Shown: one piece after another, positions 25,615-34,733 of the stretch
Layout: every line of letters starts with the position of its first letter
Numbering within the stretch: position 1 is the stretch's first letter
Source of the DNA: Candidatus Rokuibacteriota bacterium
Lineage (GTDB): Bacteria; Methylomirabilota; Methylomirabilia; Rokubacteriales; CSP1-6
Direction of reading: 5' to 3'
Assembly (NCBI GenBank): GCA_003220435.1
Contig: QHSL01000018.1
Coordinates: 1 to 34,733, forward strand
DNA: 34,733 nt
The notes under the pieces: generated by a model
The model's database searches: none
The model's input: only the letters and a program-made list of their open reading frames with translations
What the model was told of the DNA's origin: nothing
Made by a program: the position numbers and the translations under genes

Positions 25615-28278
25615 GTGAGCAGACGGAAGACCATGACACGGGAAGAGCTGAGGCTCCAGGAAGCGCAGGACCGGACGGCCCACTGGAGGCGCTGGGGGCC
25701 CTACCTGGCGGAGCGGCAGTGGGGGACGGTCCGCGAGGACTACAGCCCCCACGGCACCGCCTGGGACTTCTTCCCCCACGAGCACGCGCGATCGCGGGCG
25801 TACCGGTGGGGCGAAGACGGGATCGCGGGGATCACGGACAACCACGGGCGCCTGTGCCTGGCGCTGGCCCTGTGGAACGGACGCGACTCGATCCTCAAGG
25901 AGCGTCTCTTCGGGCTCACCGGCAGCGAGGGCAACCACGGCGAGGACGTGAAGGAGTACTACTTCTACCTCGACGCGACGCCCACCCACTCCTACATGAA
26001 GTACCTCTACAAGTACCCTCAGGCGGCGTTCCCGTACGGAGCGCTCGTGGCCGAGAACCGCCGGCGCGATCGCCGCGCTCCGGAGTTCGAGCTGATCGAC
26101 ACGGGCGTCTTCGACGGCGATCGGTACTTCGACGTGGTCGTCGAGTACGCCAAGGCCGCGCCCGACGACATCCTCGTGCGCATCACGGCGACCAACCGCG
26201 GTCCCGAGGCGGCCGAGCTCCACCTGCTCCCGACCCTCTGGTACCGGAACACGTGGTCGTGGAACGGCCCCGAGGCCGAGCGCCCGGCGCTGCGCGCGGG
26301 CGACGACACGGTCGGCCACACGGTGATCGAGGGCGATCACCCGTCGCTCGGCGCCCGGTGGCTCTACTGCGAGGGCGCGCCGGAGCTCCTGTTCACCGAG
26401 AACGACACGAACGTCGAGCGACTTTTCGGCGCCGCCAACTCGCGGCCGTACGTGAAGGACTCGATCAACGACTACGTCGTCGCCGGGCGGAAGGACGCCG
26501 TCAATCCCGAGCGCGTCGGCACGAAGGCGGCCGCGCGCTACCGGCTGACGCTCGCCCCGGAACAGAGCGTGACGACGCGGCTCCGGCTTTCGAACACGCC
26601 GCTCGCGGGTGGCCCGTTCGGCCGGGACTTCGAGGTGGTGTTCGGCCAGCGGAAGCGCGAGGCGGACGCGTTCTACGAGACGGTCATCCCCAAAGCACTC
26701 TCGGACGACGCGAAGAACGTGATGCGACAGGCCTTCGCCGGACTCCTGTGGTCCAAGCAGCTCTACCTGTTCGACGTCCGGCGCTGGCTCGAGGGCGACC
26801 CCGGGTGCCCGCCGCCTCCGCGGGAGCGGCGGAAGGGCCGCAACCACGAGTGGCAGCACCTCTACAACGAAGACGTGATCTCGATGCCCGACAAGTGGGA
26901 GTACCCGTGGTACGCGGCGTGGGATCTCGCGTTCCACACGATCCCGCTGGCGCTGATCGATCCCGACTTCGCCAAGGCGCAGCTGATCCTGTTCCTGCGC
27001 GAGTGGTACATGCACCCGAACGGCCAGATCCCGGCCTACGAGTGGGCGTTCGGCGACGTGAACCCGCCGGTCCACGCCTGGGCGGCGCTGCGCGTGTACC
27101 GGATCGATCGCCGCCTGCGCGGCAGGGGCGACCGCGAGTTCCTCGAGAAGGTCTTCCACAAGCTCTTGCTGAACTTCACCTGGTGGGTGAACCGGAAGGA
27201 CGCCGAGGGCAAGAACGTCTTCCAGGGCGGGTTCCTCGGCCTCGACAACATCGGCGTCTTCGACCGATCGGCGCCGCTGCCGACGGGCGGCCACATCGAG
27301 CAGTCGGACGGCACCTCCTGGATGGGCATGTACTGCCTCAACATGCTCGCGATCGCGCTCGAGCTGGCAAAGCAGGATCCGGCGTACGAGGACGTCGCCT
27401 CGAAGTTCTTCGAGCACTTCGTCTACATCGCCCACGCGATGGACAACCTCGGCGAGGAGTCCATCAGCCTGTGGGACGAGGCGGACGGCTTCTACTACGA
27501 TGTGCTGCACGGCGACGGCGCCGCCCATCCGATGAAGGTGCGCTCGATGGTCGGGCTCATCCCGCTGTTCGCGGTGGAGACCCTCGAGCCCGAGGTCGTC
27601 GACAAGCTCCACGGCTTCAAGCGACGCATGCAGTGGTTCGTCGACAACCACCCGGAGCTTCGCGACCACATCGAGACCACGACCAGGCCGGACGGCGGAA
27701 CGCGCCGGCTCCTGGCCATCGTCGGACGCCAGCAGCTCCCGCGCGTGCTCCGCTTCATGCTGGACGAGTCGGAGTTCCTGTCGCCCCACGGCGTCCGCGC
27801 GGTGTCGCGGTACCACCGCGATCATCCCTACGTGCTGCAGCTCGACGGCATGGAGCATCGGGTCGACTACGAGCCGGCTGAATCGTCGAGCGGGCTCTTC
27901 GGCGGCAACTCCAACTGGCGCGGGCCGGTGTGGTTCCCGGTGAACTATCTGCTGATCGAGTCGCTGCAGAAGTTCCATTACTTCTACGGCGACGCGCTCA
28001 CGGTGGAGTTCCCGACCGGCGCGGGCACGACGCTCGACCTCTGGAAGGTTGCCGGCGAGCTCTCGCGGCGACTGACCCGCATCTTCCTGCGCGACGGGGA
28101 CGGCCGGCGGCCCGTCTACGGGGGCACCGAGAAATTCCAGCGCGATCCCCACTGGCGCGACCTCATTCTGTTCTACGAGTATTTCCACGGCGACAACGGC
28201 GCCGGGATCGGCGCCGGCCATCAGACCGGGTGGACGGGGCTCGTCGCGAAGCTCCTCCAGCAGAGCGGCGAGCGATGA
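25615..28278 (+). CDS. large GH63/MGH1-like glucosidase
   Basis: The 887-residue product belongs to the GH63-like '(alpha/alpha)6' glycosidases, often annotated simply as glucosidase. An N-terminal beta-rich region (about 1-360, with [19 protein letters not shown] and [15 protein letters not shown]) precedes the barrel. The barrel carries [36 protein letters not shown] and [20 protein letters not shown]. It is predicted to act on alpha-glucosides or short oligosaccharides; the exact linkage is unclear. There is no signal peptide, so it should be cytosolic. The start is GTG 25615 or ATG 25633; neither has a strong Shine-Dalgarno. It is 39 bases after glk, and its stop overlaps the next gene (ATGA at 28275). 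Confidence 0.88.
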
Positions 28279-29180
28279 GCGGCTACTCGGCGATCATCAT
28301 GGCGGGCGGCGACGGTACGCGGCTTCGCTCGCTCACGCGGGTGCTGGCGGGCGACGAACGACCAAAGCAGTTCTGCCGGATCCTCGGCGGCGAGACGCTG
28401 CTCGCGCAAACGCGTCGCCGCGCCCTGATGCTGGTCACGCCCGAGCAGTTGCTGACCGTCGTCACGCGCCACCACGAGCGCTTCTATGCTTCAGCGCTGG
28501 CCCGCATGCCGGCGCACAAGACCGTCGTGCAGCCCGAGAATCGCGGCACCGCGCCGGCGGTCCTCTATGCGCTGATGCGTCTCGACGCGATCACGCCAGC
28601 GGATCCCGTGGTCGTGTTGCCGAGCGACCACTACGTCTCGGACGACGCAGCGTTCATGGCGCGCGTCGAGGGCGCGCTGGACGCCGTGCGCGCACGCACC
28701 GAGCTGATCGTGCTCCTGGGGATCGCTCCCGACCGGCCGGAGATCGAGTACGGCTGGATCGAGCCGGGCGAGCTAATCCTGGGGGGCTGGCCGTGGCCGG
28801 TGTATCGCGTGCGCCGGTTCTGGGAGAAGCCGGCGCTGCCGCTCGCGCGGCGCCTCGAGGAAACGGGCTGTCTTTGGAACAGCTTCGCCATTGTGGCGCA
28901 GCCCTCGACGCTCGTCGGCGCCATCCGCCGTGCGGTGCCGGAGCTCCACGACGCGTTCGAGCTCATCCGGATGCGGCTCGGCACCCCCCGGGAGGACGAT
29001 GCGGCGCACTTTGTCTATCGGCGGCTCGCGTCCACCGACCTCTCGCGTCAGGTGTTCCAGGCCATGCCGGCAGGCCTGGCCGTGTTGCCGGTGAGCGGGG
29101 TCGGCTGGGACGATCTCGGCGATCCCGCCCGCGTGCGCGCGACGCAGGCGCGCCTCGGGCGGGAGCTGACGCCGGCATGA
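28275..29180 (+). CDS. sugar-phosphate nucleotidyltransferase, mannose-1-phosphate guanylyltransferase-like
   Basis: The 301-residue product has the NTP-transferase signature [16 protein letters not shown] with [10 protein letters not shown], as in GDP-mannose pyrophosphorylases. [15 protein letters not shown] carries the metal-binding Asp, and [17 protein letters not shown] and [10 protein letters not shown] also fit. It would make GDP-mannose (or a related NDP-sugar) from the sugar-1-phosphate in the cytosol. It is shorter than the usual roughly 350-residue enzyme and lacks any isomerase domain or left-handed beta-helix. Its start (ATG 28275) overlaps the glucosidase stop, and its stop overlaps the next gene's ATG at 29177, so it is embedded in the sugar operon. 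The sugar specificity is an inference. Confidence 0.85.
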
Positions 29181-29580: not shown

Positions 29581-30123
29581 ATGACGAACCCCAGGCCGAA
29601 TGCGGCCCGCGCGGCCGCCCGCACTCGACTCCGGCGCCTGCTCGAACGCGAAGGCTCGTACCCGGCGATCGCGTCGGCGGCCGCGTCGGGCGAGCTCGGC
29701 GACGCGCTCCCCACGCCGATCTTCTCGCACATCGGCGACGTCTACGACCGGCTCGAGCTCGCCGCGGGCCCCGACTTCCCGAACATCGCGCTGCTCAGGC
29801 TGATCGTGCTCGTTCACGAAGAGCCTGCGGCGCGAGCGCGAGCGCTTCTCGAAGGCGCGGGGTTTACGGAGGCCGCGCCCGCGGTCGCCACCGTGCTCAG
29901 CGGCTTCGGGGAGGTTTGGCGCGCGAAGTCGGACGAGAGGCTGCGCGAGTACTCGCGGACGCACCACGCCTGCCTGGCGGCGCTGCTTCTCTTCGAGCTC
30001 GCTCACGAGGGCCGGGCGACGGCCCCGATGAAGCGCGCGGCCCACTTCGGCGGGCTCGAGGTCGCCTTCCACCGCTGGGCTCGGCGACTCAGAACGCGGG
30101 AGCCGTCGACCGGCGGTCGTTGA
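29581..30123 (+). CDS. unknown protein, possibly with a degenerate HD-like domain
   Basis: The 180-residue product is helical. Residues about 45-150 loosely resemble the helical HD region of tRNA nucleotidyltransferase-like proteins (IFSHIGDVYDRLELAAG, then LLRLIVLVHEEPAARA), but the HD pair reads HE and no other metal ligands are obvious, so catalytic activity is doubtful. A conserved-looking block SRTHHACLAALLLFELAHEG follows. No named family is recognised. It lies 161 bases after the anti-sigma gene; that gap holds no clear gene or terminator. It converges on the metalloprotease-DinB gene ending at 30142. Confidence 0.6.
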   Translation: MTNPRPNAARAAARTRLRRLLEREGSYPAIASAAASGELGDALPTPIFSHIGDVYDRLELAAGPDFPNIALLRLIVLVHEEPAARARALLEGAGFTEAAPAVATVLSGFGEVWRAKSDERLREYSRTHHACLAALLLFELAHEGRATAPMKRAAHFGGLEVAFHRWARRLRTREPSTGGR

Positions 30124-30141: not shown

Positions 30142-31146
30142 TCAGGGCTTGCCGTCGAGCGCGCGCTTGAGCTGCTCGAGGTGGTTCTCATCGTGCCACG
30201 CCATCAGCGTGACGAAATCCGCGATCGAGACCCGACCCCGCGTGGCGTGGACGCCGGCCCGCTTCCACTGCTCGGGCGTGAGCGTTTTGAGCAGCGTGAG
30301 CGATTCCTCGCGACGCCGGCGGAAGGCGCCGGCCGCCTGCTGGGCGTCGTTCTTGAGGTACTGACGCTCTTCGGCCCAGCGGTCGGGCGTGGTCGGGTCG
30401 AAGGCGAGCTTCGGGTCGTCCATCGCGAGGATCAGCCCGAAGCGGCCCATGAACATCTCTTCGATGTCGCGCAGGTGGCAGACGACTTCCTTCGCCGCCC
30501 AGTTCTTGCCGTCGGGCCGGCGCGACAGGGTCGTGTCGTCCCGGCCCCGGATCGCGACGGTGAGCTCGTCGGGCGTCCTCGCCAGATGCTTCATCCGCGC
30601 CTCGAGCGGCTGCGTGGCCCACGCTTCCATCGTCAGCATCGCGGCTCTCCCTTCGCCGTCCGGCACGAGCTGGTGGAACAGGCTCGACTCGCGCTTGTAG
30701 AACCCCTGCGTATGATACGACTCCGGCAGGCGCAGCCCCGTGTAGTCGACGTGATGGCCGACCTCGTGGAGCAGCGTGCGGAGATAGGTGCGGAACGCCA
30801 CGACGCGCTTCTGCTTCGCGGTCCGCATCCAGAGCTGGATCTTCGGCTTCCGGCCGCGCTCGTTGGTGTAGAGGCCGTGAAGCTCGCCCCAGTGCGAGTG
30901 AGGCCGCGCGGCGAGCACCTCGACCCGCACGGCGGGCAACCCCATCGCGTCGGCCAGGCGGGCGACCAGCTCCTGGCTCGCCCGCTCCGTCGCGGCCCGC
31001 TCCTCGCACCGGAGCGCCGCCTCGAGCGCCGTGACGCTCGGGCGGAGCGCCGCCGGGTCCTCGAGACGGATCTCGGCGATGGAATCGCTCTTCCGGTAGA
31101 CGGCCTGCTGCGAGCGCGAGAGCCGCGCGTAGTACGCGAACGGCAC
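30142..31146 (-). CDS. metalloprotease domain fused to a DinB-like domain
   Basis: The 334-residue product is a fusion. Residues about 30-170 hold HEVGHHVDY in LLHEVGHHVDYTGLR with a downstream Glu in KRESSLFHQL, the pattern of a zinc metallopeptidase (HExxH). Residues about 185-330 match the DinB/DfsB four-helix metal-binding superfamily: AKEVVCHLRDIEEMFMGRFG, ADFVTLMAWHDENHLEQLKR, with three His positioned as possible ligands. DinB-like proteins include bacillithiol, mycothiol and glutathione transferases and damage-inducible proteins; the substrate here is unknown. The start is GTG 31146 with no strong Shine-Dalgarno, four bases after the enoyl-CoA hydratase stop. It should be the last gene of the acyl-CoA operon. 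Confidence 0.8.
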   Translation of the reverse strand: MPFAYYARLSRSQQAVYRKSDSIAEIRLEDPAALRPSVTALEAALRCEERAATERASQELVARLADAMGLPAVRVEVLAARPHSHWGELHGLYTNERGRKPKIQLWMRTAKQKRVVAFRTYLRTLLHEVGHHVDYTGLRLPESYHTQGFYKRESSLFHQLVPDGEGRAAMLTMEAWATQPLEARMKHLARTPDELTVAIRGRDDTTLSRRPDGKNWAAKEVVCHLRDIEEMFMGRFGLILAMDDPKLAFDPTTPDRWAEERQYLKNDAQQAAGAFRRRREESLTLLKTLTPEQWKRAGVHATRGRVSIADFVTLMAWHDENHLEQLKRALDGKP

Positions 31147-31150
31147 CGCG

Positions 31151-31933
31151 CTAGTTGCCGGTGAAGCGGGGTTTTCGCTTCTCGAGGAACGCCTTCGCGC
31201 CCTCGATGCGGTCCTCGGTCGTGCGGAGCAGCGTGGCCAGATCGTTCTCGAGCCGCACGCCCTCGGCCAGCGGGAGCTCGAGGCCCTTCACGACGGCCTC
31301 CTTCGCGTAGCGGAGCGCGACCGGCGCCTTCTCGGCGAGCGTCCGGGCGAGCGCCTGCGCGGAGGAGAGGACCTCGGCCGCCGGGACCACGCGCTCGACG
31401 AGGCCCATTCGCAGCGCCTCGCGCGCGTCGATCCGCGCGCCGGTCAGGATCATCTCGAGCGCCTTGCCGCGCCCCACCAGCCGGGGCAGCCGCTGGGTGC
31501 CGCCGCCACCCGGGATAATGGCGAGGTTCACCTCGGTGAGACCCAGCAGCGCGTCCTCGCTGGCGATCCGGATGTCGCACGCCAGCGCGAACTCGAGCCC
31601 GCCGCCCAGCGCGAAGCCGCGGATGGCGGCGATGATCGGCTGGCCGCAGCGATCCATCGCCGCGCGGAAGTCGACCCGGTGACGGTGCGCGCGGAACTGC
31701 ACGGGCACCTGCGGCGCGACGAACTCGCGGATGTCGGCGCCGGCCGAGAAGGACCGCTCGCCCGCGCCCGTGACCACCACAACGCGAACGTCTGCATCCT
31801 GCGCCAGGTCGCCGAAACAGGTCGTCAGCTCCTCGCGCATCCGCTCGTTCATCGCGTTGTGGACCTCGGGACGATTCAGCGTGATCGTCGCGACGCCGTC
31901 GGCCAGCTCGTAACGGATCGCCTCGTATTTCAT
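31151..31933 (-). CDS. enoyl-CoA hydratase/isomerase family protein
   Basis: The 260-residue crotonase-fold protein has ITLNRPEVHNAMNERM, oxyanion-hole segment SAGADIREF, FALGGGLEFALACDIRIAS, and LTEVNLAIIPGGGGTQRLPRL with the catalytic Glu positions. It would hydrate a 2-enoyl-CoA or carry out a related crotonase reaction in the cytosol; the substrate is unknown. The start ATG 31933 is chosen because it begins the typical opening MKYEAIRYELADGVATITLN. The longer open frame upstream is a shadow of the CoA-transferase gene. The gene lies 23 bases after the CoA-transferase stop. Confidence 0.92.
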   Translation of the reverse strand: MKYEAIRYELADGVATITLNRPEVHNAMNERMREELTTCFGDLAQDADVRVVVVTGAGERSFSAGADIREFVAPQVPVQFRAHRHRVDFRAAMDRCGQPIIAAIRGFALGGGLEFALACDIRIASEDALLGLTEVNLAIIPGGGGTQRLPRLVGRGKALEMILTGARIDAREALRMGLVERVVPAAEVLSSAQALARTLAEKAPVALRYAKEAVVKGLELPLAEGVRLENDLATLLRTTEDRIEGAKAFLEKRKPRFTGN

Positions 31934-31956: not shown

Positions 31957-33120
31957 TCAGGCCGGCCGCGGCCGGCGACAGATTCGACGCGCGACGAACC
32001 CATCGATCTCCGCCTCGGTATAGCCGAGCTCGCGGAGCACCGCGTCGGTGTGCTGGCCGAGCGTCGGCGGCGGCCCCGGGTCGCGCGTCGGCGTGCCCGT
32101 GAACGCGAGGGGCTGACCCATCATCCGGAGGCGGCCGACCTCCGGGTGGTCGTACTCGTGGACCATGTCGTGGTGGTGGACGGCCGGGTTCTGCATGAAC
32201 TCGGCGACTGTCTGCACCGGCGCCGCCGGGATGTCGTGCTTGGCCAGCAGCTCGAGCCAGTGCTCGCGCGTGTTGGACTTGAACTTCGCGTCGATGAGCG
32301 GTAGCAGCGTCTGGTTGTTCTCGAGCCGCGCGAGCCACGAGGCGAAGCGCGGATCGTTCGCCAGGTCCTCGAGGTCGAGCGCCTTGCAGAGCTTGACCCA
32401 GAACGTCTGGTTGCCGACGGCCAGGAAGAACCAGGCGCCGTCGCCCGCCTGGTACAAGCGATAGGTCGGGTTGTCCCGGATCAGCGTCGGCTTGGTCGGG
32501 TAGTCGATGGCCACGCCCGCCTGCAACGCCATGGCACCCCGGAGCAGCGACGTCTCCACGCGCTGGCCCCGCCCGGTGCGCTCGCGCGTGAACAGCGCCG
32601 CGAGGATTCCCTGGGTGGCGAGCGCCGCCGTGTAGTAGTCGGTCGGCGCGGTGCGCTGGTACACCGGCGGCCCGCCGAAGCCCTGGAGCGTCATGATGCC
32701 GCCGAGCGCCTGGAAGATCGGGTCGAAGCCGGGACGGTCGGCGTTGGGGCCCGTCGAGCCGAACGCGGTGACCGAAGAATAGACGAGACGCGGATTGATC
32801 GCGCTCAGCCGCTCGTAGCCGACGCCGAGACGGTCGGCGACGCCCGGGCGCATGTTCTCCATCACGACGTCGGCGCGCTCGGCCAGCCGGTGGACGATCG
32901 CGCGCCCTTCGGCGGTCTTCAGATCGACCGAGAGCGAGCGCTTGCCGCGGTTCCAGCCGAAGAAGCCGGGCAGCTCGCGGAACGAGTCGCCCTCGAAGGA
33001 CTCGACCTTGATCACCGACGCGCCGAGGTCGGCGAGCTGCATCGCGGCGTAGGAGCCGGCGATATAGCTGGTCAGGTCGACGACGCGGACGCCGTCGAGC
33101 GGGGGCGGGGACGCGGGCAC
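31957..33120 (-). CDS. CaiB/BaiF-type (family III) CoA-transferase
   Basis: The 387-residue product has the family opening VRVVDLTSYIAGSYAAM with ADLGASVIKVE, then NRGKRSLSVDLKTAEGRAI. The catalytic-Asp segment is PGFDPIFQALGGIM, and TDYYTAALATQGILAALF follows. Family III enzymes move CoA between organic acids through an aspartyl anhydride and are common first steps in carnitine, formate/oxalate and aromatic-acid catabolism. The acid here is unknown. It sits between two acyl-CoA dehydrogenase genes and the hydratase, so it probably activates the acid that the operon degrades. Confidence 0.9.
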   Translation of the reverse strand: MPASPPPLDGVRVVDLTSYIAGSYAAMQLADLGASVIKVESFEGDSFRELPGFFGWNRGKRSLSVDLKTAEGRAIVHRLAERADVVMENMRPGVADRLGVGYERLSAINPRLVYSSVTAFGSTGPNADRPGFDPIFQALGGIMTLQGFGGPPVYQRTAPTDYYTAALATQGILAALFTRERTGRGQRVETSLLRGAMALQAGVAIDYPTKPTLIRDNPTYRLYQAGDGAWFFLAVGNQTFWVKLCKALDLEDLANDPRFASWLARLENNQTLLPLIDAKFKSNTREHWLELLAKHDIPAAPVQTVAEFMQNPAVHHHDMVHEYDHPEVGRLRMMGQPLAFTGTPTRDPGPPPTLGQHTDAVLRELGYTEAEIDGFVARRICRRPRPA

Positions 33121-33141: not shown

Positions 33142-34260
33142 CTACCTCGCGGCCCGCCGGACGATCTGCTCGCGGTGATAGTCGACGTCCCCGTACATCG
33201 ACTCGAGCGCCTTGGCGCGCTTGAAGTAGATGTGGAGGTCGTACTCCCACGTAAAGCCGATGCCGCCGTGCACCTGGATCGCCTCGCCGCACACCTTGCG
33301 CGAGGCGTCGCCCACGTACGCCTTCGCCACCGACGCGGCGAGCTCGTGATCGTCGGCCTGCGCGTCGAGGGCCCAGGCCGCGTAGTAGACGGCCGAGTGC
33401 GAATTCTCCACCTCGAGGAGCATCTCGGAGCACTTGTGGCGGATCGCCTGGAACGAGCCGATCGGCTGCCCGAACTGCTCGCGCACCTTGGCGTAGCCGA
33501 CCGCCATGTCCAGGCATCGGCGCGCGGCGCCCAGCATCTCGGCGGCCGCGCCGACCGCGCCGCGGCGAAGCAGGCTCGCCAGCAGCGGCGCCGCCTGACC
33601 CGGCGCGCCGAGCAGCGCCTCGGGCGCGACGGGGACCTTCTCCATGTCGAGGTGCACCCAGCGCGTCGCGAGATCCATGCCCTGGACCGGCGAGAGCTTG
33701 AGACCAGCCGACGCCGGATCGACCAGGAACAGGCTCGGGCCCTCGGGGGCGCGCGCCGGGATCAGCAGCATGTTGGCCACGTGGGCCCACGGCACGAAGC
33801 GCTTGGTCCCCGAGAGCGCCCAGCCGTTGGACGACTTCTCGGCGCGCGCCGTCATCGCCGCCGGATCCCAGTCGAGGTCCGCGTCGAGGAGCGCCAGCGT
33901 CGCGCGCGCGTCGCCGGTCGCGATTGCGGAGAGCCACCGCTTCTTCTGGGCGTCGTTGCCCGCCGCCTCGATTGCCGCGGCGGCCAGCACGGTCGGCCAG
34001 TACGGCCCGGGATACGCGGCGCGGCCAAGCTCTTCGAGCAGGATTGCGGTCTCGACCATGCCGAGCCCGCTGCCGCCGTACGCCTCGGGCAGCGCGAGGC
34101 CGTGCCAGCCGAGCTGGGCCATCTCCTTCCACATCGTGTCGCTCTCGCCGCGCGGGTCGTCCCACAGCAGACGCACGGTGGCGGGCTTGCAGTGCTCGTC
34201 GAGGAACGCGCGGGCCGAGTTTTTCAACAATTGCTGGTCGGAGCTGAACGAGAAGTCCAT
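33142..34260 (-). CDS. acyl-CoA dehydrogenase family protein (small-subunit-like)
   Basis: The 372-residue product fits the acyl-CoA dehydrogenase fold: an N-terminal helical part (MDFSFSSDQQLLKNSARAFL), a FAD-binding middle (WALSGTKRFVPWAHVANMLL), and a C-terminal four-helix end with QVHGGIGFTWEYDLHIYFKR. The usual catalytic Glu is not evident by eye, as often in the short partner of paired ACAD enzymes. It would introduce an alpha-beta double bond into an acyl-CoA. The upstream neighbour (34265 onward) is another member, and the four-base spacing supports a heteromeric pair. Confidence 0.88.
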   Translation of the reverse strand: MDFSFSSDQQLLKNSARAFLDEHCKPATVRLLWDDPRGESDTMWKEMAQLGWHGLALPEAYGGSGLGMVETAILLEELGRAAYPGPYWPTVLAAAAIEAAGNDAQKKRWLSAIATGDARATLALLDADLDWDPAAMTARAEKSSNGWALSGTKRFVPWAHVANMLLIPARAPEGPSLFLVDPASAGLKLSPVQGMDLATRWVHLDMEKVPVAPEALLGAPGQAAPLLASLLRRGAVGAAAEMLGAARRCLDMAVGYAKVREQFGQPIGSFQAIRHKCSEMLLEVENSHSAVYYAAWALDAQADDHELAASVAKAYVGDASRKVCGEAIQVHGGIGFTWEYDLHIYFKRAKALESMYGDVDYHREQIVRRAAR

Positions 34261-34264
34261 GGCG

Positions 34265-34733
34265 TCAGGCCTTCAGGCGGTCGGCGCGCACTTCCTTCGG
34301 CAGGCCGAGCACGCGCTCCCCGATGATGTTCTTCTGGATCTCGGACGAGCCAGAGTAGATGGTGCCGGCGCGCGACCACAGGAACGCGGTCGCGAACGTG
34401 CCGGGCTCGCCAGAAGACGTATCGACCTCTTCGAACTCTTCGCGGGCGACCATGAGCTGCCCGAACGGCCCGAGGATCTCGAGGGCCAGTTCGTAGTAGC
34501 GTTTCTCGAACTCGGTATACGACAGCTTCGTGATCGACGACGCGGCGCCCGGCGTATCACCTTTCTGCAGCGCCGACAGCACGCGCAGCGCCGCGTAGCG
34601 CTGCACCTCGAGGTCGGCGAAGATGCGCCCCATGCGCGCGCGCACGGACGGATCCTCGATCAGCGGCCGGCCGCCTCGCTTGAGCTCCTTGGTCGCCTTC
34701 ACGAGCTGGTTGAACGCGGTGACGTAGCGCGTG
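34265..34733 (-). CDS. acyl-CoA dehydrogenase family protein (3' part, runs off the window)
   Basis: On the minus strand the frame is open from the window edge to a stop at 34265-34267, giving about 155 C-terminal residues; the start lies beyond 34733. The ending has the ACAD C-terminal blocks: FLWSRAGTIYSGSSEIQKN and NIIGERVLGLPKE, with helices that pack on FAD and the dimer interface. The GTG at 34702 is only an internal codon. The gene lies four bases before the partner gene at 34260, making a likely two-subunit dehydrogenase. Confidence 0.9.
   Translation of the reverse strand, partial: TRYVTAFNQLVKATKELKRGGRPLIEDPSVRARMGRIFADLEVQRYAALRVLSALQKGDTPGAASSITKLSYTEFEKRYYELALEILGPFGQLMVAREEFEEVDTSSGEPGTFATAFLWSRAGTIYSGSSEIQKNIIGERVLGLPKEVRADRLKA

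Follow-up and report, generated by a model that had tools for sequence, protein, structure and literature searches.

Near one end of the window, by which we mean the whole stretch of 34,733 nucleotides analysed here, a gene on the minus strand was found to join a protease-like HExxH domain to a DinB-like helix bundle in a single uninterrupted reading frame (30142-31146). The gene lies at the end of an acyl-CoA operon. The genes and domains concerned are listed below.

30142..31146, minus strand: fusion gene, 334 amino acids, GTG start, last cistron of the acyl-CoA operon; full-length homologous fusions in 44 of the 57 genomes of the family
30652..31146, minus strand: N-terminal WLM/SprT-like domain, residues 1-165; HExxH at 127-131, candidate third ligand H145 (HTxGFY), E153
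30592..30651, minus strand: linker, residues 166-185; 9-38 amino acids long among fused relatives
30157..30591, minus strand: C-terminal four-helix bundle of the DinB_2/YfiT type (residues 186-330), with the metal triad H224, H318, H322
31151..31930, minus strand: enoyl-CoA hydratase/isomerase (ECH) family gene, immediately upstream of the fusion; ECH_1, E 9.3e-70
31957..33120, minus strand: CoA-transferase family III (CaiB/BaiF); PF02515, E 2.5e-119
33142..34260, minus strand: acyl-CoA dehydrogenase 1; closest to the pimeloyl-CoA dehydrogenase small subunit (TIGR03203, 193.8 bits, cut-off 652.7)
34265..34702, minus strand: acyl-CoA dehydrogenase 2, C-terminal part, cut by the window's end

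It is very likely that the protein consists of two domains, a zincin and a DinB bundle. Its nearest public relative, from Candidatus Rokuibacteriota (L009), is 92% identical over the whole length, and comparison of the two indicated purifying selection on the N-half (dS 0.202, dN 0.028) as well as on the C-half (dS 0.291, dN 0.039). The linker showed relaxed substitution, and model confidence (pLDDT) was low at residues 164-168. Neither chance nor an artefact explains the fusion: its frame is conserved, each half is kept in relatives across the phylum and is under purifying selection, and genomes assembled independently of one another carry the fusion too. These results confirmed the first-pass annotation of this DNA, which had described an HExxH protease-like half fused to a DinB-like bundle. 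From fold, ligands and context, we infer that the protein is soluble and cytoplasmic.

The N-half of the window protein matched nothing above any Pfam cut-off; the WLM profile (PF08325) stayed below threshold (E 0.0034; 17.9-19.3 bits versus a cut-off of 26). Across the 13 members of an N-half alignment (A2), weak WLM matches near or below the cut-off were found in all 13 (best E 8.6e-06), and weak SprT-like matches (PF10263) in eight (best E 0.014). The best PDB profile match was Schizosaccharomyces pombe Wss1 (E 0.29), which Foldseek also ranked first, only with an E of 0.038. The full model had a mean pLDDT of 83.7, and the N-half modelled alone reached a pLDDT of 82.4 and a pTM of 0.79. 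As a model, the N-half resembled yeast Wss1 (5xbn, Z 8.5, rmsd 3.1, 103 residues, 18% identity; 5xbv, Z 8.1), human SPRTN (6mdw, Z 7.9, 107 residues) and S. pombe Wss1 (5ln5 and 5jig, both Z 7.6), and these five rows were followed by CapP (7t5t, Z 6.4) and then by a Z of 5.3. The Wss1/SPRTN values are moderate and were obtained with a predicted model, so that membership of the zincin fold is to be read as the best available match.

H127, E128 and H131 lie in the motif LLHEVGHHVDY, and a third conserved His, which the first-pass annotation had not mentioned, follows as H145 in HTxGFYxRE. Eleven positions (H127, E128, H131, H132, D134, Y135, H145, F149, Y150, R152 and E153) are invariant in 65 of the 66 domains examined, and one of the 66 rows is cut by a contig end and does not reach the motif. 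The N-half thus shows the trait of the WLM/SprT group, an HExxH followed downstream by a third metal ligand, and this ligand would be H145 rather than E153. Residue 130, inside HExxH just before H131, divides fused from standalone copies: it is Gly in all 45 fusions, whereas in the standalone copies of the phylum it is Cys in 18 of 20 readable cases (HELCHH) and Gly in two, one of them a former fusion (G074), and in the Burkholderiales copies it is Cys in 32 of 34 and Val in two. Since the fusions may share one origin event, this split is a correlation with about one independent case.

We conclude from the profiles and the model that the N-half forms a distinct branch of the WLM/SprT minigluzincins, a previously unnamed family, and its fold and motif make peptidase activity rather likely. 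Like the N-half, its best fold match Wss1 (yeast, WLM) is a compact zincin without an extra zinc subdomain; the N-half differs in that it stays below the Pfam gathering score, has no SUMO- or Cdc48-binding tail and is fused to DinB. Its spacing from HExxH to the third His is presumably longer than that of Wss1. SPRTN and the SprT-like proteins share the fold and weak profile matches with the N-half, but the fusion is bacterial and lacks a DNA-binding zinc subdomain, a PCNA box and a ubiquitin-binding domain. In the published work, Wss1 and SPRTN are classed among the minigluzincins (PMC4559962), and Wss1 is described as lacking the zinc-binding subdomain of SPRTN (PMC9240642).

The C-half was recognised directly, with DinB_2 (PF12867) matching residues 188-326 above its gathering score (E 5.4e-18; 66.1 bits versus a cut-off of 24.8). 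In the full model this half resembled YfiT most strongly (1rxq, Z 19.3, rmsd 2.6, 160 residues, 21% identity), followed by BH0186 (Z 17.7), mycothiol S-transferase (8f5v, Z 13.6) and maleylpyruvate isomerase (2nsf, Z 13.0). A study of the Bacillus subtilis enzymes gives H67, H160 and H164 of BstA/YfiT as probable metal ligands and as the sole residues conserved among eight such enzymes (PMC5815605). H224, H318 and H322 of the window protein correspond to these three, with H224 and H318 in matching contexts in the phmmer alignment. YfiT/BstA of Bacillus therefore shares both the fold and the three-His site with the C-half, but the C-half falls far below the cut-off of the YfiT bacillithiol transferase equivalog (NF009807, 54.3 bits versus 160), its host has no BshC and it is built into a larger fused protein. 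Mycothiol S-transferase and the mycothiol-dependent maleylpyruvate isomerase have the same superfamily fold, with an identity of just 10-14%. Fold and motif together would predict thiol transfer by the C-half.

Of the 44 fused relatives that could be assessed, a set without the contig-cut G037, 42 have all of H224, H318 and H322. The triad was broken in G062 (H224Y) and in G085 (H224I and H322R), and in G074 the whole DinB half was lost. Both halves had been proposed as metal sites, the DinB half with three suitable His, and the alignments bore this out: the ligand sets are kept across relatives, and neither half is without its ligands. Judged by these alignments, the zincin is the more strictly kept half, and DinB activity seems dispensable in some lineages, because the triad is broken in two genomes and the domain is gone from a third. 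Any one central activity would thus be that of the zincin.

The distribution of the fusion was determined by searching the A2 alignment against 95 genomes of the phylum (a further alignment, A1, holds 11 of the 13 unbroken fused loci, with L015 and L017 omitted). The N-half was present in 66 of the 95 genomes, at 68 places, and 66 places were examined, namely 65 relatives and the window, after two short fragments (G012 and G013) had been excluded. The fusion was found at 45 of these places, in 44 genomes, and at the other 21 no DinB domain continues the frame of the N-half. All fusions belong to the family of the window, where 44 of the 57 genomes, from at least 17 genera, have one; the 38 phylum genomes of other families yielded none, and 15 of these possess the N-half. 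The N-half also occurs in 35 of 300 genomes of the Burkholderiales-type order of G096, and at none of these 35 places was a fusion or a DinB match found in the stretch examined, one of them (L170) being contig-cut. The idea that the two halves are separate genes in all relatives, which would have undone the first-pass reading, was therefore rejected for the window's family, where they are one gene at 45 of the 66 phylum places, and holds true outside it. No plasmid-borne relatives were seen among those checked, and keyword searches of the literature returned, among the matches listed, no description of a zincin-DinB architecture.

These results show that the fusion is real and derived, because the N-half stands alone elsewhere in the phylum and in Burkholderiales, and because the halves are separate overlapping genes in two sister genomes. 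Both of these (L063 and L113) border on the fused group, and in each a distinct DinB gene comes after the N gene and overlaps its end in another frame, a natural precursor of the fusion. At L022/L064 the DinB piece is present and frameshifted. The window's genome carries other, separate DinB genes as well (C51, 55%; C49, 52%; and more distant ones). In the best N tree the fused rows make up one side of a branch (support 70/21) if L125 and L082 are counted along; both had first been labelled standalone, L125 being a contig-cut row and L082 having lost its DinB half, and with these first labels three changes are needed. In the C-domain tree, from which two short DinB pieces of the frameshifted L064 gene were left out, the fused copies do not form one group; nine changes are counted there, of which the starred branches force only one. 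We read the sequences to mean that a standalone zincin joined a neighbouring YfiT-type DinB gene in one Rokubacteria family, with adjacency first and fusion later, probably once. A single origin is favoured rather than shown, since the support in the N tree is just 70/21 and the C-domain tree does not settle the matter.

The position of the fusion at the end of an acyl-CoA operon, also noted in the first-pass annotation, was confirmed and proved to be conserved, with an ECH family gene, a CoA-transferase of family III and two acyl-CoA dehydrogenases as neighbours. In the window the fusion starts 4 nt past the ECH stop. Of the fused places, 43 have 900 nt or more of sequence upstream; the ECH gene ends no more than 60 nt from the fusion start in 32 of them, and in two more the distance is 69 and 83 nt. 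Where 4,600 nt or more are available upstream (31 fused places), the two dehydrogenase genes (2, then 1), the CoA-transferase and the ECH gene precede the fusion in the same order and on the same strand in 28 cases, the fusion following only after 1.5-2.4 kb in three of these. A weak MaoC-like gene (E 0.0068, below cut-off) is found upstream of dehydrogenase 2 in 22 loci. In most cases, then, a conserved operon of the beta-oxidation type ends with the fusion as a tightly coupled cistron.

Neither dehydrogenase reached the PimC/PimD equivalog cut-offs, which are nevertheless their best, distant matches; a full-length relative of dehydrogenase 2 (L079) was closest to the pimeloyl-CoA dehydrogenase large subunit (TIGR03204, 266 bits versus a cut-off of 623.85). 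The best NCBIfam matches of the CoA-transferase were dicarboxylate CoA-transferases, all far below cut-off. Since these matches all fall so far short, a dicarboxylic or ring-derived acid as the operon's substrate would be a guess. In three genomes of genus g12 and in G082, 431-761 nt separate a standalone N gene from a CoA-transferase gene like that of the operon, so the acyl-CoA neighbourhood may predate the fusion. Outside the window's family, the standalone N gene showed no link to acyl-CoA genes in the phylum and Burkholderiales loci. Clustering of the neighbours of standalone N genes returned mainly antisense shadow frames, with no neighbour common across groups.

If the C-half were an S-transferase, a small thiol would be expected, and markers of thiol synthesis were searched in 20 relatives, the window's own genome included. 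BshC (TIGR03998), the bacillithiol marker, was found in none of the 20, and the same search matched 3 of 14 control genomes. The glutamate-cysteine ligase families of glutathione synthesis (PF04107 and PF04262) were likewise absent from all 20. For mycothiol, no relative had MshC over the cut-off, although sub-cut-off matches occurred in all 20; since none exceeded the cut-off and all 14 control genomes matched too, these are read as other proteins, which we take to be related cysteinyl-tRNA synthetases. EgtD, for ergothioneine, was found in seven of the 20 relatives and is absent from the window's own genome. Because the bacillithiol, glutathione and mycothiol markers are absent from the 20 relatives, an S-transferase would have no known thiol here, and either another thiol exists or the DinB domain of the fusion does something else. 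The B. subtilis study reports no use of CoA or cysteine by the STL enzymes of that species (PMC5815605).

We tentatively propose, from fold, ligands and context, that the fusion could be a protective enzyme with a combined role in cleaning up electrophiles and adducts beside the acyl-CoA pathway. In the N-half, H127, H131 and H145 would coordinate zinc and E128 would serve as general base for the cleavage of damaged or cross-linked proteins, the task of Wss1 and SPRTN. The C-half would bind a second metal through H224, H318 and H322 and, in the manner of YfiT, use it to activate a thiol (or water) for attack on electrophiles. If the gene is expressed together with the operon, both activities would be present where reactive unsaturated acyl-CoA intermediates are formed. 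Taken whole, a derived zincin-DinB fusion with such a protective role beside the operon is the best explanation we can offer, and we hold it at somewhat less than an even chance. It is improbable that the polypeptide is dedicated to one acyl-CoA pathway in the specific sense that a Wss1/SPRTN-type protease removes protein (possibly DNA-protein) adducts and DinB quenches the causative electrophile, using CoA or some thiol other than glutathione, bacillithiol or mycothiol.

Other readings of the same evidence were weighed. The DinB half could be an ordinary pathway enzyme, for example one that uses a thiol for the cis-trans isomerisation or the hydrolysis of an unsaturated acyl intermediate, with the zincin mainly as a scaffold or an accident of gene order. 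The maleylpyruvate isomerase in the DinB superfamily fits this reading, as do the extra DinB genes that adjoin the fusion in several genomes and suggest that DinB copies are useful there, but the zincin motif is the invariant one while the DinB triad and even the whole domain can be lost, and we consider it a minority possibility. The metabolic operon and the small size of the N domain would also suit a metal-dependent hydrolase or oxygenase with a small-molecule substrate, for example an acyl-CoA intermediate, rather than a peptidase; HExxH is not exclusive to peptidases, and an HExxH oxygenase (8s5f, Z 4.3) is among the weak fold matches. Such an activity is nevertheless unlikely, as the best profile and fold matches are all WLM/SprT-type proteases and in Burkholderiales and other families of the phylum the standalone domain has no acyl-CoA genes beside it.

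Equally doubtful is a regulatory protease, in which the HExxH half would cleave a repressor or the enzymes of the operon and DinB would sense an electrophile or a metal. CapP and IrrE are HExxH minimal zincins like the N-half, and CapP is the next structural match after the Wss1/SPRTN rows, with IrrE (3dti) reaching Z 5.7 for the whole model; both score below every one of those rows, however, and no conserved repressor gene was recognised in the neighbour clusters, most of which have no domain-search identification. PADLOC gave no match, which also speaks against an anti-phage role. It is very improbable that two unrelated housekeeping domains were merely joined by stop loss between overlapping genes and do not cooperate. 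The overlapping genes of the two sister genomes would suit this, and the N tree allows a single fusion (support only 70), so that later conservation would count as one evolutionary event; against it, the fusion persists in 44 genomes with both halves under purifying selection. A formaldehyde-linked role was not supported, because f10, a family of the same class with 15 genomes that we take to be methane or methanol oxidisers, lacks the N domain altogether.

What is new here is the architecture and the protein branch, and the chemistry is of a known kind. The first-pass annotation had regarded the combination as unexplained by known pathways; this stands for the combination and fails for the halves, whose kin are the YfiT/STL S-transferases (C-half) and the WLM/SprT minigluzincins (N-half), so that its observation is confirmed and its interpretation partly supported. 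Enzymes related in fold to the N-half clear proteins that are stuck to DNA, and bacterial members of the Wss1/SPRTN-type zincins are, to our knowledge, little studied. The present family adds a widely distributed bacterial branch to them, and since its physical partner and operon are known, the role of the N-half becomes testable. The fusion likewise gives a lead on what at least one of the very many uncharacterised DinB proteins may do. Its place beside an acid-degrading operon suggests a damage-control role beside that pathway.

Several further observations were made at these loci. The hosts of the fusion are one group of uncultured soil bacteria, a Rokubacteria family. A contig filed under Gemmatimonadetes (L012; QHUS01000123.1, 3,286 bases) carries a fusion nearly identical to that of Rokubacteria L017 and is probably mis-binned. 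Convergent with the fusion in the window is a frame of 180 amino acids (29581-30120, plus strand) that has no Pfam match (E up to 1) and, by phmmer, no relatives in the compared loci. Beyond it, at 25615-29180 on the plus strand, lie two genes, first one for a large MGH1-like glycoside hydrolase and then one that resembles mannose-1-phosphate guanylyltransferase; the MGH1-like hydrolase recurs beside the operon in 14 of 45 clustered fused loci. Additional DinB genes, one or two per locus, come after the fusion at L065, L072, L086, L088, L101 (two), L102 and L105. At L088, which belongs to G062, the fused DinB carries H224Y, and the adjoining extra DinB copy keeps all three ligands.
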